From Candidatus Saccharibacteria bacterium (GTDB lineage Bacteria > Patescibacteriota > Saccharimonadia > Saccharimonadales > Saccharimonadaceae), in contig JAEUQU010000002.1 of NCBI GenBank assembly GCA_016789455.1, positions 1,178,001 to 1,242,000 of the forward strand: 64,000 bases of DNA, in the 5' to 3' direction. A program made the position numbers and the translations under genes. Positions 25,121 to 38,974 of this stretch are shown piece after piece; the first letter of the stretch is position 1; each line of letters starts with the position of its first letter. The notes under the pieces are model-generated. The model was not told where the DNA came from. It saw only the letters and a program-made list of their open reading frames with translations, and made no database searches.

Positions 25121-25852
25121 GTGACACTGGGTACGTTGGACGTCACTACCCTGCCGCTCACGCGGGTCTACACCTGTAAGGACGGCTCCACCATCGACAT
25201 GGTCGAGCTGGTGAAGCGCGCCCGGCCGGTCATCGAGGCCATGATGGAGGCCGGCTTCCTCAAGCAGACCGACGCCATGGGCTTCGTCATGCTGGAGCCG
25301 GCGGTAGTCGGTCACGACAACCGCAGCAAGATCGACCCCGACGACCCGTCGACCTACGTCTGGTTCGCCGGTGGTTGGGGCGACGAGAAGCGGCTGCACG
25401 CGCTCATCGCCAACGCGGTCCGCAAGCTGCGGGGCATGCTGCGCGAGCAGGTCGACAGCACGCTGGAGATGCGGCTTGACCCCGCCAACTTCACTTTCGA
25501 GAACCTCGTCCCGTCGGTCGACGAGAACGACGAGTTCCCCTGGGGCGACTTCGGCTGGGCCGGTGCGCTGCGCCTGTTCTTCGACGACCTCGAGCTGGGC
25601 GGCGCCATCAGCGTCTTCAGCGAGCTCGGGGACCACACCGTCACTGCGCTGCTGCTGCACCTGTTCTACGAGCCGATGGCGGCCGGTGACGGCCTGTTGC
25701 CGGAGAACACGGCGATGATCCGGCTGAAGGAGGCGGTGGAGGCCAAGCGAGCGGCGGCTGCCGATGCCGCCACGCCCGCTGCCGGCATCGAGAAGATCGA
25801 CGCCGGCAGCGCCGCCTACGCCGAGTACGGCGGGGACGGCGCCGAGCGCTGA
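25121..25852 (+). CDS. Orphan cassette protein B1 (paralogue of the 26.5-kb gene)
   Basis: A 243-aa soluble acidic protein, start GTG 25121 six bases after AGGAG. It shares with the next cassette gene a helix pair (DMVELVKRARPVIEAMMEAG), the signature WFAGGWG, LR..LRE...STLE(M/L)R, PWGD(F/I) and a C-terminal helical segment with G(D/N)H. The tail is Ala/Glu-rich low complexity (AKRAAAADAATPAAG). No known family. Codons are almost all G/C-ending. Own promoter and a T-rich terminator mark it as an autonomous transcription unit. Confidence 0.75.
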   Translation: MTLGTLDVTTLPLTRVYTCKDGSTIDMVELVKRARPVIEAMMEAGFLKQTDAMGFVMLEPAVVGHDNRSKIDPDDPSTYVWFAGGWGDEKRLHALIANAVRKLRGMLREQVDSTLEMRLDPANFTFENLVPSVDENDEFPWGDFGWAGALRLFFDDLELGGAISVFSELGDHTVTALLLHLFYEPMAAGDGLLPENTAMIRLKEAVEAKRAAAADAATPAAGIEKIDAGSAAYAEYGGDGAER

Positions 25853-26436: not shown

Positions 26437-26508
26437 CATGCCCCTACAATGATGTAGTATGTGTACCACCGCCGCACGGTCCTACCCTGCAGCACCGACT
26501 CCCAAGGA
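26433..26508 (+). promoter_or_regulatory. Promoter and conserved 5' leader of the 26.5-kb orphan
   Basis: TTGACA (26433-26438, overlapping the previous stop codon), 16-bp spacer, TAGTAT (26455-26460). The mRNA should begin near 26467 and open with CGCCGCACGGTCCTACCCTG followed by CAGCAC (about 26470-26496), matching the 25.1-kb leader at 22 of 26 positions or so. AAGGAG lies before ATG 26515. Confidence 0.75.
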
Positions 26509-26514
26509 GTACCC

Positions 26515-27162
26515 ATGACACCAGAACCGGTAAACCCCGGCACCTTCCCGACCGCCCAGACATTCCAGTGCTGGGACGGCACCAGCCTGGACCTGGCCGC
26601 GCTGTTGGTGGAGACCCGGCCGGTCGTCCAGGCACTGCTGGATGGCGGCATCATCAGCGCGGGCGCCATCAACGCCGGCTACAGCATCGGCTTTGTGATG
26701 ACGTCGCCGATCGTCAACGGCGAGTACCTCACCGACACCAACAACTGGGACCACCCGGAGCGGTTCGTCTGGTTCGCCGGCGGCTGGGGCGTCTCGCACA
26801 AGCGGCGCATCGCCGAGGCGGCCTGCCTCCTGCGGCCACTCCTGCGCGAAATGGCTCGCAGCACGCTGGAGCTGCGCATGGTCGACCCGACCCAGTTCTT
26901 CGACGCCGTCGAGCCCGCTCCCACCGAGGACATGCCCCCATGGGGCGACATCCCGGAGGGCGGCGCCGTCATGCTCACCTACGGCGACCTCATCCTCCGC
27001 GGCGCGGTGCGCGGCCTCGATGAGGCCGGCAACCACCTCGTGGCGGTGCTGCTGATGGAGATCATCGCGAAGCGGATCATCGCTAGGGAGGAGATGCCGC
27101 TGTTGCGGGAGGGGAGTGACGACGGGGACGGGGTTGAGCCCGACGACTCCGACAGGGGGTGA
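26515..27162 (+). CDS. Orphan cassette protein B2 (paralogue of the 25.1-kb gene)
   Basis: A 215-aa soluble protein; ATG 26515 follows AAGGAG by 5 bases, so an open extension to 26461 is not used. Shared with orphan B1: the first helix pair (VETRPVVQALLDGG), WFAGGWG, K-R...A..LR.LLRE...STLELR, PWGDI and GNHLVAVLL. The tail is acidic (DDGDGVEPDDSDRG). No known family. The whole unit (promoter, leader, gene, terminator) parallels the B1 unit, so it arose by duplication of the complete cassette, with the anchored-protein gene in between. Confidence 0.75.
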   Translation: MTPEPVNPGTFPTAQTFQCWDGTSLDLAALLVETRPVVQALLDGGIISAGAINAGYSIGFVMTSPIVNGEYLTDTNNWDHPERFVWFAGGWGVSHKRRIAEAACLLRPLLREMARSTLELRMVDPTQFFDAVEPAPTEDMPPWGDIPEGGAVMLTYGDLILRGAVRGLDEAGNHLVAVLLMEIIAKRIIAREEMPLLREGSDDGDGVEPDDSDRG

Positions 27163-28334: not shown

Positions 28335-30053
28335 ATGGATAGCCAATCGTCATTTGAAATGCCCATACAACTTGTCCCTGATTTGGCGGTTGCCGAGTCC
28401 GAAGATAGCCGTAGTGACGCACTAGAATTTATATCTTACGCAAGTGTCATAGCTCGTATTGTTCGTGGAACACGCGGACCTTTTACCATAGGCGTATTTG
28501 GCGAATGGGGGATGGGTAAAACTAGCTTGATGAGATTAATCGCTCAACAGTTAATAAGCGACAACTTTGAAGGAAGTGATCAAGTGATAGTCCCCGTATG
28601 GTTCAACGCATGGATGTTTGAACGTGTTCAGTATCCAATCATTCCATTAATAAAAAGTATTATTGAGGCGATTGAACTAAGGCAGCAGAGTGACGATAGT
28701 ATCGCGGCTTCAAGTAAAACACTCTTGGACGCGCTCAAGGCACTAATTAAAGCATCAAAAATAAAAGGACAACTAAGCCTTCCAGGTGGAGGCGCGGAGG
28801 TCGAGGTAGATCCCAGTGTTGCGTACGCGGCGTATAAAGAGCATAGAAGTGGCCGCGAATCAGTTCCGGAAAACCAAGATTCATATGAGCAAATATTCGA
28901 CGCGCTTCACAAGATCAGTGACAATGTTGTTCCCAAAAACATTACAATTTTAGTACTTATTGATGACCTTGATCGCTGTTTTCCCGAAAACGCGGTGCGA
29001 CTACTTGAGAGTATAAAGCTGATTCTTTCTCAACCTGGCTTCATTTTTGCGCTGGGGGCATCAAGAATTGTTATTGAAGAGTACCTGCAGTCAAAATATG
29101 AAAAACAATTTGGGATTCAGCATTTCAACGGCCGTGCTTATCTGGACAAAATGATCCAGCTAACATTTGACATTCCCCCGCATGCTTCACGCATAGATAC
29201 CTTTACTGATGAAATTATTAGCAGTATTGAAAATGAAATTACCCGCAATGAATTGCATTCGGTAAATTCTATAATAAGCCAAACTTGTCACTATAACCCT
29301 CGTGCGATCATTCGTTTTATCAACAGGCTTATCACCGACAGCGCAATATATAAACTAAAAAATTCAAGTGTCGAGAAGGCCACCATCCCGGTTGGTTTCT
29401 TTGCTGTTACTAGAAGCTTGCAGCAAGTATCGCAAGATTTGTACGGCCTTCTTGTTAGCGGGGAAGACGAGGAAGACAGAGAATACTGCGCCATCATTTC
29501 CAGATGGAATGACCATGACATAAAGGACTGGAAGAACTATGGTAACGGCATTGCGGATGCAAAACGACCAAAAGATTATGGCGCTCTGCGACTTGCGGAT
29601 CCGCAGGCATTGAAACAAATTGCAACTTACTTAGCAAATAACCGCACGTTAAAGTTTCTATTATGGCAAGAAATGGGAAGGAGGTGGCTTGCAGACCACC
29701 CCATGCGTGAAGCTAGTGTTTCATTTCTACTTGCCCAGCCAAGCGAGAACGTCATGTTTAGCGACGACCAAGTTGCAAAAGCACCTGAGGCTTATCGGCC
29801 ATATACTCAACAAGATGATGTATATGAGGAGGCCGTAAGAACTGTTATTGAACTAGGAAGGGCCTCAACTAGTCTGCTTCAAAGAAGGCTGCGCATCGGC
29901 TATTCTCGGGCGGCAAGAATTATTGAAGAGATGGAACAAAAAGGAATTGTTGCTCCTTCGGATGGATCGCGACCGAGAGAGGTGCTCATTAGTAGTTATG
30001 GTGAATTTGAAAATCTGACGAGTAAAATAGGGTCAGATGAAAGTATTAAATAG
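28335..30053 (+). CDS. KAP-family P-loop NTPase fused to an FtsK gamma winged-helix domain
   Basis: A 572-aa protein. The KAP NTPase core (about 30-360) has Walker A GEWGMGKT at 56-63 and Walker B ILVLIDDLDR at 205-214, then the sensor-like LGASR and the late NPRAIIRFINRL. Unlike classic KAP proteins I see no pair of transmembrane helices in the insert. Residues 494-553 are a near-textbook FtsK/SpoIIIE gamma domain (YEEAVRTVIELGRAST, LLQRRLRIGYSRAARII, EEMEQKGIVAPSDGSRPREV), which in FtsK reads polar chromosomal motifs. The fusion suggests a DNA-sequence-guided NTPase, probably in genome defence (inference). ATG 28335 lies 7 nt after TAGTAT (28322-28327). The MazG-like gene follows at once. 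Confidence 0.92.
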   Translation: MDSQSSFEMPIQLVPDLAVAESEDSRSDALEFISYASVIARIVRGTRGPFTIGVFGEWGMGKTSLMRLIAQQLISDNFEGSDQVIVPVWFNAWMFERVQYPIIPLIKSIIEAIELRQQSDDSIAASSKTLLDALKALIKASKIKGQLSLPGGGAEVEVDPSVAYAAYKEHRSGRESVPENQDSYEQIFDALHKISDNVVPKNITILVLIDDLDRCFPENAVRLLESIKLILSQPGFIFALGASRIVIEEYLQSKYEKQFGIQHFNGRAYLDKMIQLTFDIPPHASRIDTFTDEIISSIENEITRNELHSVNSIISQTCHYNPRAIIRFINRLITDSAIYKLKNSSVEKATIPVGFFAVTRSLQQVSQDLYGLLVSGEDEEDREYCAIISRWNDHDIKDWKNYGNGIADAKRPKDYGALRLADPQALKQIATYLANNRTLKFLLWQEMGRRWLADHPMREASVSFLLAQPSENVMFSDDQVAKAPEAYRPYTQQDDVYEEAVRTVIELGRASTSLLQRRLRIGYSRAARIIEEMEQKGIVAPSDGSRPREVLISSYGEFENLTSKIGSDESIK

Positions 30054-30054
30054 T

Positions 30055-30420
30055 ATGATTTCACGCACACCCTCACTTAAAAATCTTCAGCAACAAATCC
30101 GCCAATTCTGCGACGCCCGCGACTGGGACCAATTCCATAACCCCAAAGACCTTTCCATCTCACTTGCGCTTGAAGCTACTGAGGTCATGGAGCACTTCCA
30201 ATGGAAAAACGCCGAAGAAATGGCCGAGCACATCAAGAAGCACAAGGGTGATGTCGGTGAAGAACTGGCGGACGTATTCTATTGGGTGCTGCTACTCGCC
30301 AACAAGCTCGACATTAATTTGGTCGAAGCCTTCAACGACAAGATGGCCAAGAACGAAAAGAAGTACCCTGTTGCCAAAGCAAAGGGTAGCCATAAGAAAT
30401 ACACCGAACTTTCCGAATGA
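30055..30420 (+). CDS. MazG-like nucleotide pyrophosphohydrolase (dCTPase type)
   Basis: A 121-aa all-alpha NTP pyrophosphatase. The metal-binding pattern is E-x2-E in LALEATEVMEHFQW and E-E-x-x-D in GEELADVFYWVLLL; the opening helix QIRQFCDARDWDQFHNPKDL is typical of the MazG/dCTPase (RS21-C6) group. It hydrolyses (deoxy)nucleoside triphosphates to monophosphates. ATG 30055 comes right after the KAP stop; an in-frame ATG at 30037 would overlap the KAP gene. Its stop overlaps the start of the DUF2075 gene (ATGA). MazG-type enzymes near helicases can limit phage by depleting dNTPs or by removing damaged ones; the role here is inferred. Confidence 0.9.
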   Translation: MISRTPSLKNLQQQIRQFCDARDWDQFHNPKDLSISLALEATEVMEHFQWKNAEEMAEHIKKHKGDVGEELADVFYWVLLLANKLDINLVEAFNDKMAKNEKKYPVAKAKGSHKKYTELSE

Positions 30421-32339
30421 TCATCTACTCAGCCACAAAAAAGCAGTTCTCTCACGACATTCTCGCCAATAATATCGAGCAAAAAGTTCTGGCATCATTT
30501 GTGCGCGCTACGGGTTCGACATCAGGCAAATTGCCAGTGAGCGAGGCCGAAATTCGCTCGTGGCACAACTCTTTGATGTACATGGACAAGGTGGTGTCTA
30601 GCAGCGATATCCCAGATAACGCGGGTGTTGCCATTGAATATAGACTGCCACTCTCGTCCAAGCGCGTAGATTTTATTCTGACGGGCCAGAACGAGCATGG
30701 GCGCGACACGGCTATTCTTGTAGAGCTTAAGCAGTGGTCAACTGCTACGGCGACTGATAAAGACGGCGTGGTTAATACTTTTGTAGCTAAGCAATATCGA
30801 GATGAGCCACATCCGTCATATCAAGTCTGGTCATACGCGGCCATGCTTGAGAACTACAACTCTACCGTACAGCAAGATGAAATCATCTTAAAGCCGTGCG
30901 CTTATCTTCACAACTATGAGCCCGACGACGTTATAAACAGTGAGCGCTATGCGGAATATACAAGCAAAGCGCCAGTCTTTTTGCTGCCCGATGCCGAAAA
31001 GCTGCAAAACTTTATCAAGCAGTACGTTAAGTGTGGTGACGAAAACGGCGTGCTTTATAACATCGAGCGCGGCCAGTTGCGACCATCAAAGCAGCTTGCC
31101 GATAGCCTCCGGTCGATGCTAGAGGGTAATCAGGAATTCATACTAATTGATGAGCAGAAGGTAGTCTACGAGACTGCATTGAGTTTGGCTCGACATTCCA
31201 GTGATGAGGTGAAGAATGTGCTAATCGTGGAAGGTGGCCCAGGTACGGGCAAGTCTGTGGTGGCCGTCAACCTCTTGGTAAATCTCATTCAAAAGGGTTT
31301 AGTATCTCAATACGTAACGCGTAATGCGGCACCTCGCGTAGTGTTTGAAGCTAAGCTTTCAGGCAGTAGTCTCAGGTCACAAGCATCACATTTATTTCGA
31401 TCTGCTTTTGGCTATGTTGATGCTGCTGCCAATGAATTCGATACACTTATCGTTGATGAAGCTCATCGCCTTACGGAAAAGTCAGGCGTCTACGGCAATC
31501 TTGGCGAGAACGAAGTAAAAGAAATTATCAATGCCGCCAAATTCTCAGTCTTCTTTATTGATGAAGATCAAAAGGTGACATTGAAGGATATTGGCAGCAA
31601 AGACGAGATTCGAAAATGGGCGAGGGTGCTTGGTGCAACTGTTACTGAGTTGGAGTTGCCGTCACAATTCCGCTGCAACGGCTCTGATGGATATCTGGCG
31701 TGGCTTGATGATGTGCTTGAAGTGCGCGAAACTGCAAACACAAACCTGGACGGCATTGATTATGAGTTTCGCGTATATGACTCGCCGCACGACTTACTTG
31801 TAGACATACACGAAAAGAATGAGCTCAATAATAAGTCCCGCTTGGTGGCAGGATACTGTTGGGACTGGAAAAGCGCTAAGAATCCACTGCTGCACGATAT
31901 TGAAATTGGTGATTTTACGGCGCGCTGGAACTTAAAGGTTGATGGTCAAGCGTGGCTTATTAAGCCGAACTCGGTGAATGAGGTGGGCTGCATCTACACC
32001 TGCCAAGGGCTTGAGCTTGATTATGTCGGTGTTATCTTAGGCGAAGATTTAGTGGTGCGTGATGGAAAAGTCGTTACTAATGCATTGAAACGTGCATCGC
32101 AAGATAGGGCACTTTGGGGGTATAAAGGCATGCATAAAGAAAATCCCGAGGAAGCTTATGCAATTGCTGATGCGATTATCAAGAATACGTATCGTACGCT
32201 CATGACTCGTGGTATGAAGGGTTGCTTTATCTACTCGGTCGACGAGGAGACGAGAGAGTACTTTAAGCAGCAATTATTATCATTTCATGAAACAAAACTA
32301 CCAAATATTGGGGTGGATGGTTTTAGTGTCATAGACTAG
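30417..32339 (+). CDS. PD-(D/E)XK nuclease domain fused to DUF2075 helicase (second copy)
   Basis: A 640-aa protein of the DUF2075 family. N-terminal candidate nuclease core: D85 in KRVDFIL and E103-x-K105 in ILVELKQW. Helicase core: Walker A GGPGTGKS (273-280), DEAH at 347-350, QFRCNGSDGY, then CQGLELDYVGVILGEDL and YRTLMTRGMKGCFIY, as expected for SF1/Schlafen-like helicases. It overlaps the MazG-like gene by 4 bases and precedes the JAB gene by 19, so KAP-MazG-DUF2075-JAB looks like one operon. Sequence is clearly diverged from the copy at 8326, so it is not a recent duplication. Confidence 0.9.
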   Translation: MIIYSATKKQFSHDILANNIEQKVLASFVRATGSTSGKLPVSEAEIRSWHNSLMYMDKVVSSSDIPDNAGVAIEYRLPLSSKRVDFILTGQNEHGRDTAILVELKQWSTATATDKDGVVNTFVAKQYRDEPHPSYQVWSYAAMLENYNSTVQQDEIILKPCAYLHNYEPDDVINSERYAEYTSKAPVFLLPDAEKLQNFIKQYVKCGDENGVLYNIERGQLRPSKQLADSLRSMLEGNQEFILIDEQKVVYETALSLARHSSDEVKNVLIVEGGPGTGKSVVAVNLLVNLIQKGLVSQYVTRNAAPRVVFEAKLSGSSLRSQASHLFRSAFGYVDAAANEFDTLIVDEAHRLTEKSGVYGNLGENEVKEIINAAKFSVFFIDEDQKVTLKDIGSKDEIRKWARVLGATVTELELPSQFRCNGSDGYLAWLDDVLEVRETANTNLDGIDYEFRVYDSPHDLLVDIHEKNELNNKSRLVAGYCWDWKSAKNPLLHDIEIGDFTARWNLKVDGQAWLIKPNSVNEVGCIYTCQGLELDYVGVILGEDLVVRDGKVVTNALKRASQDRALWGYKGMHKENPEEAYAIADAIIKNTYRTLMTRGMKGCFIYSVDEETREYFKQQLLSFHETKLPNIGVDGFSVID

Positions 32340-32358
32340 TCTCGTAAGAGGTTAGTTC

Positions 32359-32721
32359 ATGCGAAAAAACAAAATTAGTGTAGTTGAGGAGGTTCTGGCG
32401 AGACTTAGCGAGGAGCGAGTAAGTCGTCAGGAGCATCTTATGTCGTTTAGTCTTAGTAGCCAAAGAGAAATTATCAAGAAGCACACTGTAAGCATTGGAA
32501 CACTCAACGCTACGCTCGTCCACCCAAGAGATGTGTTCTATAGCGCAATTGTTGATAACGCCGCCGAAATTGTTATTGCTCATAATCATCCGGAGGGAAG
32601 TTTAGAGCCCAGCAACGCGGATCGAGCTATGACCAGAAGATTTCGTGAAGCGGGCCAACTACTGGGCATTCCGTTATATCTTCATGTTTTGGTCACAAAG
32701 TCGAGCTACTCCGTGATTTGA
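32359..32721 (+). CDS. RadC-like JAB/JAMM domain protein, short form
   Basis: A 120-aa protein that consists almost entirely of the RadC-type JAB domain: HNHPEGSLEPSNAD carries the H-x-H and S-x2-D zinc/catalytic residues, and a glutamate earlier in the chain completes the JAMM set. The helix-hairpin-helix part of full RadC is missing. It starts 19 bases after the DUF2075 gene with an AGAGG site. RadC-like JAB proteins are common on mobile and defence-related DNA; substrate unknown. Confidence 0.85.
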   Translation: MRKNKISVVEEVLARLSEERVSRQEHLMSFSLSSQREIIKKHTVSIGTLNATLVHPRDVFYSAIVDNAAEIVIAHNHPEGSLEPSNADRAMTRRFREAGQLLGIPLYLHVLVTKSSYSVI

Positions 32722-32812
32722 GATAGGCTGCATGGCCAAATTGAAGTAGACTTAACGATGGCATTAGTGCTTAAGTTAAATTACATTTCAAGCATTGGCA
32801 CTGTGGCGCTAA

Positions 32813-34459
32813 ATGACAAAACGGACGATACCCACCTCAGTACGTGCTATCTGTTATGTACGTGATAATGAAACTTGCCAATGGAGTGGCTGTGATTTGT
32901 CGCGTCTTAACGGTGACGTGATTAACTTGCACCACATCTTGCCTGAACAATTTGGAGGCAAGGAAGAGCCGGATAATCTTATCACGCTTTGTGACATACA
33001 TCATAAAAGTATGCATGCAGAATTCCATGCATTCTATCCTGACAGTCAGAGTGTTTTGCTAAAAATGAACCGACTGACTAAAACTGCCCTCTCTAAAATT
33101 AGAAGAGCGATGGGCGTAGATGATGGGTATGATTTACGTCCATATCTCTACTTTTTGACTAAACAGTACAGTTTCAGGCCGGGACAGCTTACTGCCATTC
33201 GAGCCGCACTATCGGGGCGGGATGTTCTATTTGTTACGCCTACAGGCTCTGGCAAGTCAGTGTGTTATCAAATGCCAGGCCTGTTGGGAGGAAGTGCCTC
33301 GTTGGTAATCTCACCACTCAATGCACTAATGAAAGATCAAATGGAAAGCATTTGGTCCAAAAAAATTCCAACTACCTACATAAATAGCGAGCTTTCTCCA
33401 GAAGAAAAGAGAAAACGATACTCGTTTATTCGGCAGCACCTCTATAAGTTTATATTTGTTGCGCCTGAGCGGTTTGACTCTAAAGATCCGCTTACTTCAA
33501 ATCTATACACTCACTATTCACACCTCGTTGTCGATGAGGCGCACGCGATTGATATGTGGGGCATGGCGTTTCGTCCGTCATATCGAAAACTGGGCGAAAT
33601 CCGGCGCACGTTAGGTGACCCGCCGGTAATCGCGCTAACGGCAACGGCATCCAAAGAAACACAAAAGAACATCACTACCTCTCTCAACATGAAGCGGCCA
33701 AAAGTAATCGTCACTGGCTTCGAAAAAAAGAACATTGAAATTTTAGTGCATCGGGCGCATGAACGGAATTTCTTACATAATAGAAACATTGGAAAGCTTG
33801 AATATATCTACCAAACAATTACTGGCAACCCTGATCATAAGATTATAATTTTCGTACCGACAGTAAAGCGCGGAGACGAATTGCTCAGCGAATTGCGTTT
33901 CAGGGGACTGGAGGTAGAATTTTACCACAGCAAGCTAGAGCCTAAAGTAAAAATGCAAATTCAGAATAGGTTTACAGGCATACAAAAGCCAGGGCTGCGA
34001 GTGCTCATTAGCACTTCCGCATTTGGCATGGGAATTGATATCCCAGACATACGTCATGTGATTCATCTTATGCCCGCGCAAAGCATTACTGATTATGTGC
34101 AGCAGATTGGCCGAGCCGGCAGGGACGGTAGACAGTCCTATGCCCACCTATTGTACGAGCCTGCCGACAACGGTCTGCTTGAATATATGGCTGAACGGAG
34201 CTTGCATGAAAAGGGCTTTAAAGAAAAGCATGGCTATACCGACAAGGATGTTGAGCAGGTAAAGCGTAAATTACTTACCCAAGTCGAAGATATGATTAAT
34301 TTGACGCGCCAACCCAAGGGAAAAGAATGGAAATACATCCTTGATTACTTTGGAGAGGTGCCGCCGCGGTTCTGGGACATGTATGGGAAATGGGCTGTTG
34401 ATGCTTTTCTTATTGCCTTGCTGGTGGTTGTTACCTGGTGTGTCGCACAAAGCATGTGA
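32813..34459 (+). CDS. HNH nuclease - RecQ helicase - C-terminal transmembrane helix fusion
   Basis: A 548-aa protein with unusual architecture. Residues 10-70 are an HNH endonuclease (C22, C27, then NLHHILPEQFGG with H40-H41, N55, and LCDIHH with C60 and H63). Residues 115-470 are a RecQ-type SF2 helicase: Walker A TPTGSGKS (142-149), SPLNALMKDQ, DEAH (241-244), ALTATAS, GMGIDIPDIRHVIH and QQIGRAGRDGR. The RecQ zinc/winged-helix and HRDC domains are missing; instead, after a linker, residues about 526-545 (AVDAFLIALLVVVTWCVA) form one hydrophobic helix, which would tether the enzyme to the membrane. It follows the KAP-MazG-DUF2075-JAB operon by 91 bases. A membrane-located DNA-cleaving helicase acting on incoming DNA is an attractive inference. 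Confidence 0.92.
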   Translation: MTKRTIPTSVRAICYVRDNETCQWSGCDLSRLNGDVINLHHILPEQFGGKEEPDNLITLCDIHHKSMHAEFHAFYPDSQSVLLKMNRLTKTALSKIRRAMGVDDGYDLRPYLYFLTKQYSFRPGQLTAIRAALSGRDVLFVTPTGSGKSVCYQMPGLLGGSASLVISPLNALMKDQMESIWSKKIPTTYINSELSPEEKRKRYSFIRQHLYKFIFVAPERFDSKDPLTSNLYTHYSHLVVDEAHAIDMWGMAFRPSYRKLGEIRRTLGDPPVIALTATASKETQKNITTSLNMKRPKVIVTGFEKKNIEILVHRAHERNFLHNRNIGKLEYIYQTITGNPDHKIIIFVPTVKRGDELLSELRFRGLEVEFYHSKLEPKVKMQIQNRFTGIQKPGLRVLISTSAFGMGIDIPDIRHVIHLMPAQSITDYVQQIGRAGRDGRQSYAHLLYEPADNGLLEYMAERSLHEKGFKEKHGYTDKDVEQVKRKLLTQVEDMINLTRQPKGKEWKYILDYFGEVPPRFWDMYGKWAVDAFLIALLVVVTWCVAQSM

Positions 34460-34498
34460 AGGTGTCTCCCTTTGCAGCCCCAATGATATGCTTATGCT

Positions 34499-35194
34499 AT
34501 GAGTCTACCCCTCCACACCCTCGCAAACACCTATGGCCCTTTGCCGCCCGGGTGCAGCGTCGTCGTGAAGGATGCCACTGTGCAGCGCAGGACAATCGAT
34601 GGTTACTACGGGCCGGAGTACGGCGAGCAGTGCACGGTGCTGAGCTTTTACGGCATGTCCTACATCTTGCTGATTGTGATACTGGCGGCGGCAGTCTTTA
34701 TCAAAATAAAAGACATCATGAAATCTAAAAAACGTAAGTCATTGCGGCGCAAAGAAAAGCCGCTATTGCCAGGCGGGAAGCTCGCTGAGGTGGGCTTATT
34801 TTCGTTGGTGGCTGTAGCTTATACCAGCTTACTGGCGTTACTTCTGGTGAGGACGCTTATGTATGCGCCAAGGAGCGACGCTGATATGTGGTGGACTGTT
34901 GCGAACTGGGGAATCATACTAATGCCGCTCATGTACTATATGCTGGCGGTGCTGTTGTCGACTGGTGTGTACCACACATCAAGGATGCTTGTTGTGTCGC
35001 TGGGGTATACACTTGCGGGAGTAGTTGTGCAGATAGTTATGCTGTGGTTTGTGGCGATGGAAGAAACACGGTCGCTCACTCGTGGATCCGGGTCACTTTT
35101 GCAGAATGTTGAGGCGGTGTATGTGACTGCGGTTGTCGTAGCGCTGATGCTGGGTGGGTATATTTGGTTGATGAGGAAAGAAGGGAAGTGGTAG
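34499..35194 (+). CDS. Five-TM membrane protein (paralogue family C, copy 1)
   Basis: A 231-aa membrane protein with about five hydrophobic segments, an N-terminal outer loop of about 50 residues with two cysteines, and a basic loop (KSKKRKSLRRKEK) after the first helix. Motif ILMPLMYYMLAVLLSTGVYHT and the C-terminal ...LMRKEGKW recur in the genes at 35199 and 40426. ATG 34499 lies exactly 6 nt after TATGCT (34487-34492), so it should be leaderless. Function unknown. Confidence 0.75.
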   Translation: MSLPLHTLANTYGPLPPGCSVVVKDATVQRRTIDGYYGPEYGEQCTVLSFYGMSYILLIVILAAAVFIKIKDIMKSKKRKSLRRKEKPLLPGGKLAEVGLFSLVAVAYTSLLALLLVRTLMYAPRSDADMWWTVANWGIILMPLMYYMLAVLLSTGVYHTSRMLVVSLGYTLAGVVVQIVMLWFVAMEETRSLTRGSGSLLQNVEAVYVTAVVVALMLGGYIWLMRKEGKW

Positions 35195-35198
35195 CTAT

Positions 35199-35831
35199 AT
35201 GAACATATGGGAACCTCTCGCGTCAGATACCCTGCCAGTAGGCTGTTGGTACGGAGAGTTGATGGGAATTAATCCAAGTTCACATCACGGACCATTGGAA
35301 TGCTCTGTCTTTAGCCTCATCAATATCTTATGGGTCGTGCTCCTGGCAATTCTCGTGAGCGCTGCTGTTTTGAGATATAGAAATAGCAAAAATGGCCGCA
35401 AGCGACCAAAGCGGCCGTACCCTGAGCCTGTATTTAAATCGGTGCTATTTTATCTTGTGACGATATCTTACGCGGGAATGCTTATCTACGGACTACTTCA
35501 GTGGGATATGGCAAAGCTGCTTAGTCCGGTGGGTCTCCTGGAACTAACGACTGTGGGAGGACTATTTATTCTCCCGGTCGTATTCTTTTTCTTGGCGTTT
35601 TTACTGTCTACTGGCGTGTATAGCATGCATACGGTACTCTTCAAAAGTCTGGTCTATTCATTTGTTTCGGTGCTGTTGGTTATCGCCGGGCTTATACTTT
35701 GTATAAACTTACTTGGCTTTGAAGCCCAGCGCATAGTGACGAGATGGGAATGGGCCTATTGCTGGGCGATAGCAGCCAGTGGCGGGTTATATTCTTATCT
35801 GTTGAGAAAGCGGCAACAGAAGGAGTGGTAA
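35199..35831 (+). CDS. Five-TM membrane protein (paralogue family C, copy 2)
   Basis: A 210-aa relative of the preceding gene, 4 bases after its stop, so a tandem duplicate in one operon. Same layout: outer N-terminus with a cysteine pair, helix, basic loop (RNSKNGRKRPKRPYP), then four more helices. Shared motif FILPVVFFFLAFLLSTGVYSM and terminal LLRKRQQKEW. Function unknown. Confidence 0.75.
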   Translation: MNIWEPLASDTLPVGCWYGELMGINPSSHHGPLECSVFSLINILWVVLLAILVSAAVLRYRNSKNGRKRPKRPYPEPVFKSVLFYLVTISYAGMLIYGLLQWDMAKLLSPVGLLELTTVGGLFILPVVFFFLAFLLSTGVYSMHTVLFKSLVYSFVSVLLVIAGLILCINLLGFEAQRIVTRWEWAYCWAIAASGGLYSYLLRKRQQKEW

Positions 35832-35881
35832 TGCGCTCGGCGAAGTCTTCCTTTGTACTACACAAACTACTTAGGTGATAT

Positions 35882-35909
35882 TTGACATATTTTTATAATA
35901 TAGTAAAAT
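35882..35909 (+). promoter_or_regulatory. Promoter of the 55-aa basic protein
   Basis: TTGACA (35882-35887), 16-bp AT-rich spacer, TAAAAT (35904-35909). Transcription near 35916 would give a leader of about 60 nt. Confidence 0.75.
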
Positions 35910-35977
35910 ACTATGACTCGGCATTCCGCCGGGCGACTCGCGACCCTTAGGTTGCCCAACTCTGCAGGGAGCACCTG

Positions 35978-36145
35978 GTGCCCAAGAAGAAGCCCAACTT
36001 CATCTCTTTCGGCAACAAGAAGTCCGGCAAGAAGAAGGGGCCGCTCGAGCAGCTGTTCACGCCCGCCAAGAAGCAGACCAAGAAGACGCACCACGACTCC
36101 CTCAAGAGAGGCCAGGGCAACGGCGGCGGCAGGCGCCGCGGCTGA
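35978..36145 (+). CDS. Small strongly basic cassette protein, 55 aa
   Basis: A short gene: GTG 35978 to TGA 36145, with AGGGAG 9 bases upstream. The product begins MPKKKPNFISFGNKKSGKKK and ends in a Gly/Arg tail (GGGRRRG): about one third Lys or Arg, with one short amphipathic stretch (PLEQLFTPAKK). Such composition suggests RNA, ribosome or nucleoid binding; no family is recognised. It has its own canonical promoter and a GC-rich hairpin terminator, the same cassette style as the other orphans. Confidence 0.7.
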   Translation: MPKKKPNFISFGNKKSGKKKGPLEQLFTPAKKQTKKTHHDSLKRGQGNGGGRRRG

Positions 36146-36184
36146 CCTGAGCGCCTTGGCTTCATTGGATCCAAGCACTCCGCA

Positions 36185-36220
36185 CCCCGGCCGCGCAACG
36201 TGGCCGGGGTGCCTTCACCT
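36185..36220 (+). terminator. Hairpin terminator of the 55-aa basic protein
   Basis: CCCCGGCC (36185-36192), loop of 9, GGCCGGGG (36202-36209), followed by TGCCTTCACCTT. Confidence 0.7.
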
Positions 36221-36243
36221 TAGTTGCTATACTAGTAGATGAT

Positions 36244-37173
36244 ATGACCAAGCATTTAGTATTTGCCAAGTCCGCCCCCAACCCCGAGCTAGCACACGTG
36301 TATGAGCATATGTTTGCCATGTCTCTTGCTGCTGAACTTCGCCAAGAGGGTCTGCTGGGGTACCTCGACTACCTACTCGATGCAAAAACATACCATAAAG
36401 GCATACTATGGTTTGAAATTTCGTTATTTTCTGACAAGGCCATGGCCTTTGCACCCAAAATACTTTCGCATCGAACACCATTAAGTGAAGACCACATTAA
36501 TATGGCACTACTGCAGATAATGGCCGAAAAACTCGCCAATGTTGCTGAAGTGGATCAAGAAGGATTTTTGGCCGGTGTGGCTGCGCTTAACGAAGCGCGG
36601 TGGGTAAGCGCCACAAGCGAGGGGCTGATTAAAGGGTTTTTGTATCAGATGCAAGAAATAATAAGTCTTGAACCGAGGGATGACAACGGTTTCAATGTAA
36701 TACGGCAAGAAGTGGCAATCAAGAATGCTGCGGATGGCTCGGATATATCATTCCCTCTGGCGATTATCTTATCGAAAATCATTCACCACACGTTACAGGA
36801 AGATATTGCCATGACTTCCTGTTGCTATAGCATGGATGACGCTTGGCAGGAAAAAAATAAACACCTTCAATTAGTAAATTGGTACAGGATGGACAAGCGG
36901 CAGAATACCAAACTTTCCAGCGAAGGCGAGGTAACAGACGAGGTCTTACGCTTACTGCGTACGCCCGAGACTGCGGAGCGAATAATCAATATTGCCACAT
37001 CTACTGCCCATGACCAAGGAATGCTTGCCGGGCAACATAACATGCTGGAGTATGGAGGCATTTTTGTCGGTACATCGTACTGGTCGCGTAATGTTACAAG
37101 AGAAAGTATAGCGAGCGCCTTGGACATGCTTTCGGTTAAATTCAGTATGGAGCCTGCTGTGCAAGAGATGTAG
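36244..37173 (+). CDS. Minimal M16-like (inverzincin) metallopeptidase homologue 1
   Basis: A 309-aa protein whose N-terminus carries the inverted zinc motif H18-V-Y-E21-H22 in AHVYEHMF, as in M16 peptidases (HxxEH). The following LDAKTYHKGILWFEISLF fits the M16 NAxT...Y strand, and E95 in QIMAEK, 73 residues after H22, is the best third-ligand candidate. Full M16 proteins have two or four about 220-residue halves; here there is one catalytic-like half plus about 80 residues. No signal peptide, so a cytoplasmic enzyme. TATACT at 36228-36233 is 10 nt before ATG. A paralogue lies at 38060 with an unknown gene between, probably a three-gene functional group. Confidence 0.62.
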   Translation: MTKHLVFAKSAPNPELAHVYEHMFAMSLAAELRQEGLLGYLDYLLDAKTYHKGILWFEISLFSDKAMAFAPKILSHRTPLSEDHINMALLQIMAEKLANVAEVDQEGFLAGVAALNEARWVSATSEGLIKGFLYQMQEIISLEPRDDNGFNVIRQEVAIKNAADGSDISFPLAIILSKIIHHTLQEDIAMTSCCYSMDDAWQEKNKHLQLVNWYRMDKRQNTKLSSEGEVTDEVLRLLRTPETAERIINIATSTAHDQGMLAGQHNMLEYGGIFVGTSYWSRNVTRESIASALDMLSVKFSMEPAVQEM

Positions 37174-37248
37174 TGGCGGGCGGGAGTAAAGTGCTCCTAA
37201 TTTGGTAACTACCCGTGGGGCCAGAAGCCTTTAAGTTATACTGAGACC

Positions 37249-38025
37249 ATGCCTCCACCCCTCGAACCCCGCCATCCCATCTACCGCCACTCCCTGCGCG
37301 CCTTGCTGAGATTGATTGAAAAAGGCCAGGAGCTACAGGATAGCCAGTTCCTGCGGGATACGTCTGACATACTCGATAATCTCGTGTACGAGAACTATGA
37401 CAACTGGACCACATACATGAGTGCCATCCAAGACCGCGTTGGCAACGATGAAGAAGACGAGATGTACGTATCTGACGAAGAAATGTCAACGGCAAGACAA
37501 TCGATTGATGAGCAAATTTTTGGTGATTTTGACGAAGCAATGATAACGCTGGAGCAGGATCTGCGCGGCTTGCCATGGCGCGACAGTTTAGACTCGGATG
37601 CATTCAAACCCGATTATTTTGCGGCGGACGATCGTAAAATATGGGATGAACTGCGCGAGGTTGCCAAGCGGTACATTGGTGTACGGGATACCGATGCGGC
37701 TGAAGCGGCGACAGAAGACGCTATTGTAAGGCTCCGTCGTTATCTACAGAAATTGTATGGCCCGCTCATACCCGTAATGATTGCAACATACTCAAAAGCC
37801 GAAAATGTAAGGACTGTCGGGTATTCGGTGCGGCTTGCCTGGCTTGATGGCAAGTTGGATATCACAACAAGTGCGCCGTTCTGTGCGAAATTTACGAACT
37901 ATGTTATGAAGATAAAGCCAATAACACGCCCTGAAAGTTTTACAGCTGAGCATGTGCCCCAGAAGATAGATGGCTTTGAGCTTGGGTCTGTTGATTGCTA
38001 TCAATTATTCCGGTACGAGCTATAG
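37249..38025 (+). CDS. Hypothetical acidic protein between the M16-like genes
   Basis: A 258-aa soluble protein with no recognised family. Residues 1-70 are helical, 65-110 acidic (NDEEDEMYVSDEEMSTAR), and 150-258 mix helices and strands (GYSVRLAWLDGKLDITTSAPF). ATG 37249 lies exactly 6 nt after TATACT (37237-37242), so it has its own leaderless transcript. Position between two M16-like genes suggests it may be a partner or substrate; this is only context. Confidence 0.7.
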   Translation: MPPPLEPRHPIYRHSLRALLRLIEKGQELQDSQFLRDTSDILDNLVYENYDNWTTYMSAIQDRVGNDEEDEMYVSDEEMSTARQSIDEQIFGDFDEAMITLEQDLRGLPWRDSLDSDAFKPDYFAADDRKIWDELREVAKRYIGVRDTDAAEAATEDAIVRLRRYLQKLYGPLIPVMIATYSKAENVRTVGYSVRLAWLDGKLDITTSAPFCAKFTNYVMKIKPITRPESFTAEHVPQKIDGFELGSVDCYQLFRYEL

Positions 38026-38059
38026 GTCTCCTTTGTCGCAACGAGTTCCGTAATAATCT

Positions 38060-38974
38060 ATGCAGCGCCTATCCATCTACAAAAACACCACCACCCAAAA
38101 TACCGCACATCTTTACGAGCACCTCTATTGCTATGCCTTAGATTATTTTTTTCTATCGCACAAGTTATATACCTACGTTGACTATCACTATGATGCCAAA
38201 ACCTATGCCAATGGCTTAATCCAGCTCGATACATTCCTGTTTACTCCAGAGGCGGAGGCATTGGCCTTGCAGCTAACGAGTGTTTTGCCTGACTTTAGTG
38301 GTGATTCGGTGAGCATGGCATTGATTGAAATACTGGCCGAGAAGCAGTGCTACGCCGAAGCTGACGAGCAAAAAGTGATACGGGTATTGAAGCAGATTGA
38401 CAAAATAGTGTGGCGACACAGTGTGGCCAACGATTCAATTGTCAATCAAACAGATGGACACGAAGATCCATTGATCTTGTACCCGGCAAAAAGCAATGAT
38501 TTTACAAGTGCAGAGTGCCAGATTGTCTTAGGAGATGCTCAGACGATAGCCAATGATGCAGCCCTGCCTCTTTTTTATATCGTTGCTACGGCATTACTCA
38601 ATAACGTCACAGATATGTTGGCAAGGGAATATGCTTACTTTGGCATCGAAAGAAGCTTTGATAAAGGACTTGAGCGCCCAATTGCCACTCAACAGTTTAG
38701 GATACATGCCTCGCAGGCATCTGAAACAACAGAAGAAGTCGCAGACATCGAAGTACTCATAGAGGCAATGAAACATGCTGGCTTAGTGAGGAAGCTCGCA
38801 GCCTATTTGAATAATGCCACCTATGATATGCCACTAATGGCTCCAGATAAGAAACAAATACGTAAAGCTACGGGTATGCATATTGACGTGGAAGAATGGC
38901 GAAAACTGGGGACTCCAGATACTATACAGTGGATTTTGGATGCGTGTGAAGTACGGTGGCAGTTTACATCGTAA
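38060..38974 (+). CDS. Minimal M16-like (inverzincin) metallopeptidase homologue 2
   Basis: A 304-aa paralogue of the protein at 36244. H17-L-Y-E20-H21 in TAHLYEHLY forms the HxxEH motif, YDAKTYANGLIQLDTFLF matches the same strand, and E94 in ILAEK is 73 residues after H21, the same spacing as in the first copy. The C-terminal halves are far less alike. The conserved spacing of all three putative zinc ligands in two diverged copies argues that metal binding is selected. In paired M16 enzymes one partner is often inactive; here both keep the motif. Start ATG 38060; the upstream ATAATCT box is weak. Confidence 0.62.
   Translation: MQRLSIYKNTTTQNTAHLYEHLYCYALDYFFLSHKLYTYVDYHYDAKTYANGLIQLDTFLFTPEAEALALQLTSVLPDFSGDSVSMALIEILAEKQCYAEADEQKVIRVLKQIDKIVWRHSVANDSIVNQTDGHEDPLILYPAKSNDFTSAECQIVLGDAQTIANDAALPLFYIVATALLNNVTDMLAREYAYFGIERSFDKGLERPIATQQFRIHASQASETTEEVADIEVLIEAMKHAGLVRKLAAYLNNATYDMPLMAPDKKQIRKATGMHIDVEEWRKLGTPDTIQWILDACEVRWQFTS

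Follow-up and report, generated by a model that had tools for sequence, protein, structure and literature searches.

How ultra-small epibiotic bacteria, in which CRISPR is rare (PMC6509639), resist phages and handle imported DNA is an open question, and a self-contained nuclease-helicase anchored in the membrane would answer it in a compact way. A candidate for such an enzyme is encoded in the 64,000-nucleotide stretch of a Candidatus Saccharibacteria genome (1.44 Mb, two contigs) that was analysed here and is termed the window. The gene, at 32813-34459 on the forward strand, is one complete open reading frame (ORF) of 548 codons from ATG to TGA, and its product joins an HNH nuclease and a RecQ helicase core to a predicted C-terminal membrane helix. 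We tentatively read this protein as a stand-alone, tail-anchored enzyme that would act on incoming DNA.

An HNH nuclease fused to a RecQ helicase core

The initial annotation of this gene, made from the sequence alone, proposed an N-terminal HNH nuclease, a complete RecQ core without RQC and HRDC domains and a single C-terminal membrane helix within one 548-residue chain. The nuclease assignment is borne out. Residues 1-80 make up an HNH domain of the McrA/IscB type, in which the ligands are intact (C22-x4-C27, H40-H41, N55, C60-x2-H63 and H64), although the match to PF01844 (19.8 bits) is slightly below the cut-off of 21.4.

The RecQ core (residues 118-460) is indeed complete. It possesses FRPGQ (motif 0), TPTGSGKS (Walker A) and DEAH, in addition to the aromatic-rich loop WGMAFRPSY, ALTATA, TSAFGMGID and QQIGRAGRDG. 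With 304.1 bits against TIGR00614 (cut-off 219.8), the protein belongs to the RecQ family, but its 295 bits against TIGR01389, which describes the classical bacterial RecQ with RQC and HRDC domains, are far below the cut-off of 640. The protein has neither an HRDC domain (no match in the Pfam scan) nor an RQC winged helix. Structural comparison of the AlphaFold2 model (mean predicted local distance difference test score 80) with solved RecQ cores gave Z scores of 32-37 across residues 100-519 among the best ten matches. The aligned region includes residues 477-515 (“...WKYILDYFGE”), a remnant of the RecQ zinc-binding subdomain, in which the helices are retained whereas the cysteines are gone. 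The initial description of a RecQ stripped of its accessory domains therefore holds for HRDC and the winged helix, but not entirely for the zinc-binding subdomain. As judged from the domain families, the protein would combine 3'-5' translocation by RecQ with DNA cleavage by HNH.

A C-terminal membrane helix confined to Saccharibacteria

The Kyte-Doolittle hydropathy, averaged over 19 residues, peaks with 2.28 at residues 527-545, and the AlphaFold2 model ends in a helix at residues 520-547, in agreement with the single membrane helix proposed initially. Only one to three residues follow the membrane helix. A helix at the terminus with hardly any residues after it has the layout of a tail anchor, and we predict such an anchor with the enzyme on the cytoplasmic side. 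As 43 of 2000 shuffled versions of the protein reached the same hydropathy, hydrophobicity by itself is modest evidence for a membrane helix; the case is carried by the terminal position and by the presence of the helix in two other Saccharibacteria.

These two close relatives, from Candidatus Saccharibacteria G438 (L042; 70% identity) and G113 (L043; 66%), belong to the same family as the window genome but to two other genera. Their helices reach hydropathies of 3.01 and 2.78, respectively. By contrast, hydropathy does not exceed 0.73 within the C-terminal 60 residues of the 15 relatives from outside Saccharibacteria, namely one protein from another class of the phylum (G482) and 14 from Alphaproteobacteria. 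The initial annotation would have been refuted by a hydrophobic segment not conserved among homologues, an objection that turns out to be half true: the segment is kept in three of three saccharibacterial members and in none of the 15 others, a lineage-specific presence that follows the tree. The alphaproteobacterial members instead end in a RecQ-like four-cysteine site (C...CCD.C). On this sequence comparison, the helix of the saccharibacterial members occupies the place of the former RecQ zinc finger, and membrane tethering is a saccharibacterial addition to an older, soluble HNH-RecQ family.

Between the window protein and its G438 orthologue, identity is 71-81% along the stretch from HNH to RecQ, with 80% in the HNH part and 71% in the RecQ core, but only 22% in the helix. 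Hydrophobicity is kept while the sequence drifts, as expected of a pure anchor. The absence of the helix from 15 of the 18 relatives might suggest an accident of recent fusion or truncation in one genome; however, the helix and the preceding segment “(Y)IL(D/N)YFGE..P.FW” are common to the window protein, G438 and G113, and these orthologues from two other genera refute such an origin, which we regard as exceedingly improbable.

The copy in G113 is split into a 499-codon frame without the tail and a separate 86-codon frame matching residues 488-542 of the window protein. Both pieces are located at contig ends (the end of L016 and the end of L017), and the insertion coincides with the assembly break. 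At the breakpoints, terminal repeats match at 28 of 40 positions, AGGT is duplicated and the flanks continue in frame (...NQQ followed by VDEMVDF...), which argues that an insertion sequence interrupts the gene and that the tail with the helix is its original 3' end. The 86-residue membrane-helix protein was considered as a separate module and rejected, being the 3' part of the split gene. The copies in the other two saccharibacterial genomes, the window genome and G438, are intact.

A single clade of HNH-RecQ proteins

The homologue search covered 1760 genomes. Close copies were found in three of the 394 genomes of the family (the window genome, G438 and G113). A fourth copy, 44% identical, came from G482 (L060), a member of another class of the phylum. 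A wider scan of ~85,000 species used patterns from a 63-residue region, including the family signature KKIP[AT]T[YF]I (residues 183-190), which in the window protein reads KKIPTTYINS over residues 183-192. It added the 14 alphaproteobacterial copies, in each of which the HNH can be read; they are hosted by Mesorhizobium, Rhizobium, Sinorhizobium/Ensifer, Bradyrhizobiaceae, Paracoccaceae and one unclassified Pseudomonadota. Verrucomicrobial and other matches were RecQ-like proteins without HNH, and were rejected. In a further copy from Rhizobium sp. BK376 (L063:9600-11221), the HNH and RecQ parts are in different frames, as would result from an error in sequencing or from a frameshift in a pseudogene.

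The comparison set thus comprises 18 proteins: three from Saccharibacteria, G482 and 14 from Alphaproteobacteria. A maximum-likelihood tree of helicase cores unites all 18 in a single clade (support 97/92, recovered in 96% of bootstrap trees), within which the proteins of Patescibacteria and those of Alphaproteobacteria each make up a branch of their own. This tree is most simply explained by one fusion event. None of the 18 proteins deviates at C22, H40, H41, N55, C60 or H64, so the degenerate zinc ligands that the initial annotation had thought of as a possible weakness do not occur in any of them. The helicase motifs are likewise retained. With both sets of residues intact across the clade, selection seems to act on nuclease and helicase activity alike.

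No HNH-RecQ protein was found in the phage collection or in the viral contigs scanned with the single protein and with an alignment of the KKIP region, and the plasmid scan returned copies only from Mesorhizobium and Sinorhizobium. As far as the collections scanned show, HNH-RecQ is not a viral gene.

An accessory gene without a conserved partner

All-against-all comparison of 19 loci revealed no conserved partner gene among the window's neighbours. None of these neighbours recurs at other loci, which suggests that the HNH-RecQ gene is autonomous. In G113, the genes beside it encode type III Mod and Res, a DrmD-like SNF2 protein and a Ppl-like ATPase; the Bradyrhizobiaceae locus (L044) has a type III Mod and a Res-like protein beside it, and an N6-methylase (L049) and AbiEii (L068) are found near two other copies. 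The pattern, as read from these loci themselves, is that of accessory cargo with an apparent lean towards defence contexts. A role in defence would fit this sporadic, cargo-like distribution and the neighbours at several loci.

Mutually related large serine recombinases are located close to the gene in G113 (L016:3933-5351), G438 (L040:14012-15307) and L044, and integrase or transposase genes are present at L048 and L049. The element in G113 adjoins putative genes for pyruvate kinase and triosephosphate isomerase. These recombination genes, together with one plasmid copy, raise the alternative that the gene serves its mobile element, in recombination, replication or homing of integrative elements, rather than host defence. 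Yet the linked elements differ between loci, and no recombinase is near the window copy, the nearest PF07508 match being ~47 kb away. Moreover, defence genes are common as cargo of such elements, and we consider service to the element unlikely. No empty insertion site could be defined within the same genus, where the flanks are not syntenic.

A putative nuclease-helicase at the site of DNA entry

Altogether, we lean, tentatively, towards a stand-alone, tail-anchored nuclease-helicase that may act on incoming DNA. A tail anchor with the enzyme inside would bring the motor to the point at which DNA from phages, plasmids or transformation reaches the cytoplasm. The presence of ComEC in the genome and the natural competence of Saccharibacteria (PMC10633639) speak for this reading, as does the absence of HNH-RecQ from the viral contigs and phages scanned. 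As suggested by prediction and by conservation in three Saccharibacteria, the C-terminal helix would keep the enzyme at the membrane, facing the cytoplasm. DNA emerging there in single-stranded or partly duplex form, whether injected by a phage, taken up in competence or received by conjugation, would serve as the loading site for the RecQ motor, which would then move along it 3'-5'; the McrA-type HNH, to judge by its domain family, would nick or cut the passing DNA. Action at DNA entry is plausible, with a precedent in SNIPE, a membrane-bound GIY-YIG nuclease proven to cut phage DNA during injection (PMC13190303; reviewed in PMC12904381). By analogy with SNIPE, self DNA may escape cutting chiefly because exposure of the nucleoid at the membrane site is rare. 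It is rather doubtful, though possible, that this one-gene helicase-nuclease tells non-self DNA purely by its place of entry, with RecQ reeling in at the inner membrane what HNH cuts. The soluble alphaproteobacterial members would have the same cutting and unwinding activity, with their specificity coming from elsewhere.

Some observations weigh against the proposed action at entry. The helix is absent outside Saccharibacteria, and is thus dispensable for the basic role of the family; the neighbourhood is different at every locus; and at several alphaproteobacterial loci the neighbours are metabolic or housekeeping genes rather than defence genes. A family that is mostly soluble yet keeps HNH and RecQ intact, in cargo contexts of a defence-like kind, might instead comprise nuclease-helicases that sense damage, ends or replication intermediates of invader DNA. 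Such an enzyme would work like Hachiman or other helicase-gated nucleases, and its membrane attachment would be incidental, serving stability or spacing. The anchor, however, has persisted in each of the three saccharibacterial copies while its sequence drifted, suggesting that it is important there, and we hold the sensing role to be somewhat unlikely. If the reason for the anchor is left aside, a defence nuclease-helicase, acting either at entry or as a sensor, is probable.

RecQ is a repair family, the source genome has ComEC and Saccharibacteria are naturally competent for transformation (PMC10633639). These points would suit a membrane enzyme of DNA repair or competence processing that handles imported DNA rather than destroying it. 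As an HNH domain is atypical for repair RecQs, we judge this role improbable.

Saccharibacteria, which have recently become tractable, and E. coli would both allow a test of the tail-anchored enzyme that we prefer, and the soluble sister branch in rhizobia provides a natural control for the contribution of the anchor.

Other genes around the locus

The KAP NTPase, MazG-like, Schlafen-group-3 and JAB genes are all upstream of the HNH-RecQ gene on the same strand (Table 1), and are given as context only. The HNH-RecQ region has 42-48% GC, compared to 55-64% in the left flank; promoter and terminator scans remained at chance level.

Table 1. Coordinates of the HNH-RecQ gene, its domains and the upstream genes in the window.
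Feature	Position	Strand	Evidence
HNH-RecQ gene with membrane helix, 548 aa	32813..34459	+	complete ORF; orthologues 70% and 66% identical in two other Saccharibacteria
HNH nuclease domain, residues 22-68	32876..33016	+	PF01844; McrA/IscB HNH resemblance; catalytic residues invariant, n=18
RecQ helicase core, residues 118-460	33164..34192	+	TIGR00614, 304 bits; RecQ folds, Z 32-37 (best ten matches)
RecQ zinc-binding subdomain remnant, helices 477-515	34241..34357	+	structural alignment to RecQ cores reaches residue 519; cysteines lost
C-terminal membrane helix (predicted), residues 527-547	34391..34453	+	hydropathy; AlphaFold2 helix 520-547; hydrophobicity conserved in G438 and G113
KAP P-loop NTPase with C-terminal FtsK-gamma DNA-binding domain	28335..30053	+	PF07693, E 1e-32; PF09397, E 5e-29
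MazG-like pyrophosphohydrolase	30037..30420	+	PF12643, E 2e-17
Schlafen-group-3 helicase, PD-(D/E)XK-like N-terminal part	30417..32339	+	PF09848, E 4e-100
RadC-like JAB domain protein without N-terminal part, 120 aa	32359..32721	+	PF04002, E 2.7e-32

The KAP NTPase is similar to QatA/PifA/PDC-S20 in the PADLOC scan, and its combination with an FtsK-gamma domain of the type that reads KOPS (FtsK orienting polar sequences) is unusual. The nuclease motif of the Schlafen-group-3 helicase (RVDFILTG...AILVELKQW) was read by eye. No clear relative of this helicase was found in the HNH-RecQ Saccharibacteria (six related genomes; a short, marginal match at E 7e-4).

Directly downstream of the HNH-RecQ gene are tandem paralogous membrane proteins (34499-35194 and 35199-35831), grouped by all-against-all BLAST and assigned to no family. 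They are followed by two paralogues of ~305 residues without a Pfam match (36244-37173 and 38060-38974); in both, an H-x-x-E-H motif like that of M16-type peptidases is present close to the N-terminus. Further upstream, two plus-strand ORFs of 243 and 233 residues (25121-25852 and 26461-27162), alike by eye, are opposite longer antisense ORFs in GC-rich DNA; this pair probably marks the coding strand.

Comparison with known systems

The HNH-RecQ family is already known as a sequence cluster, PDLC02859 of PADLOC-DB (model of 545 residues), which is labelled DpdF. This model gave 340 bits to the window protein (residues 17-472, HNH included) and 749 bits to an alphaproteobacterial member. However, the DpdF label pools many RecQ-like helicases, and the saccharibacterial tail is outside the matched part. 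Identity with DpdF of 7-deazapurine DNA modification was rejected, both by the NF041063 score of 160.5 bits against a curated cut-off of 550 and by the lack of QueC (PF06508) in the protein's own genome, control genomes having given matches. Neither a published function nor any account of a RecQ fused to HNH or anchored in a membrane was found, subscription literature being outside the search. What we rate as new is the gain of a membrane anchor in Saccharibacteria by a nuclease-helicase of the kind found among defence proteins.

The protein resembles the RecQ helicases E. coli RecQ, RqlH and PsyrT in its complete core, aromatic-rich loop and fold, but differs from them by the HNH in front, the membrane helix and the missing HRDC and winged helix, in addition to the zinc site lost in Saccharibacteria. 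Similarly, it shares core residues and their spacing with HNH domains of the McrA/IscB type, but its HNH is fused to a helicase and lacks a modification-reading or RNA-guided part. Zorya (the ZorAB membrane motor with the nuclease-helicase ZorD), which acts at the membrane (PMC12904381), and Hachiman (HamAB) also combine helicase and nuclease in antiviral defence. Both are multi-gene systems with other helicase and nuclease families, and no ZorA/ZorB-like partners were found among the four upstream and five downstream neighbours by Pfam (28335-38974) or among the four upstream ones by PADLOC.

In SNIPE, the membrane helices are poorly conserved and absent in about a third of homologues (PMC13190303). 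The window protein is alike in having a single membrane helix of low conservation and a cytoplasmic nuclease, in being encoded by a single gene and in its proposed action at DNA entry. It differs in having HNH instead of GIY-YIG, a RecQ motor instead of DUF4041 (neither SNIPE domain was found in the Pfam scan at E 0.1) and a C-terminal instead of an N-terminal helix. Moreover, cleavage of injected DNA is proven for SNIPE, whereas the window protein is read from its sequence and model. If place of entry alone does tell non-self DNA here, the protein would join SNIPE as a second “cut at the door” system of independent origin, in which an anchor has replaced the RecQ zinc finger, and location-based discrimination of self from non-self, proven so far for SNIPE, would have evolved more than once.
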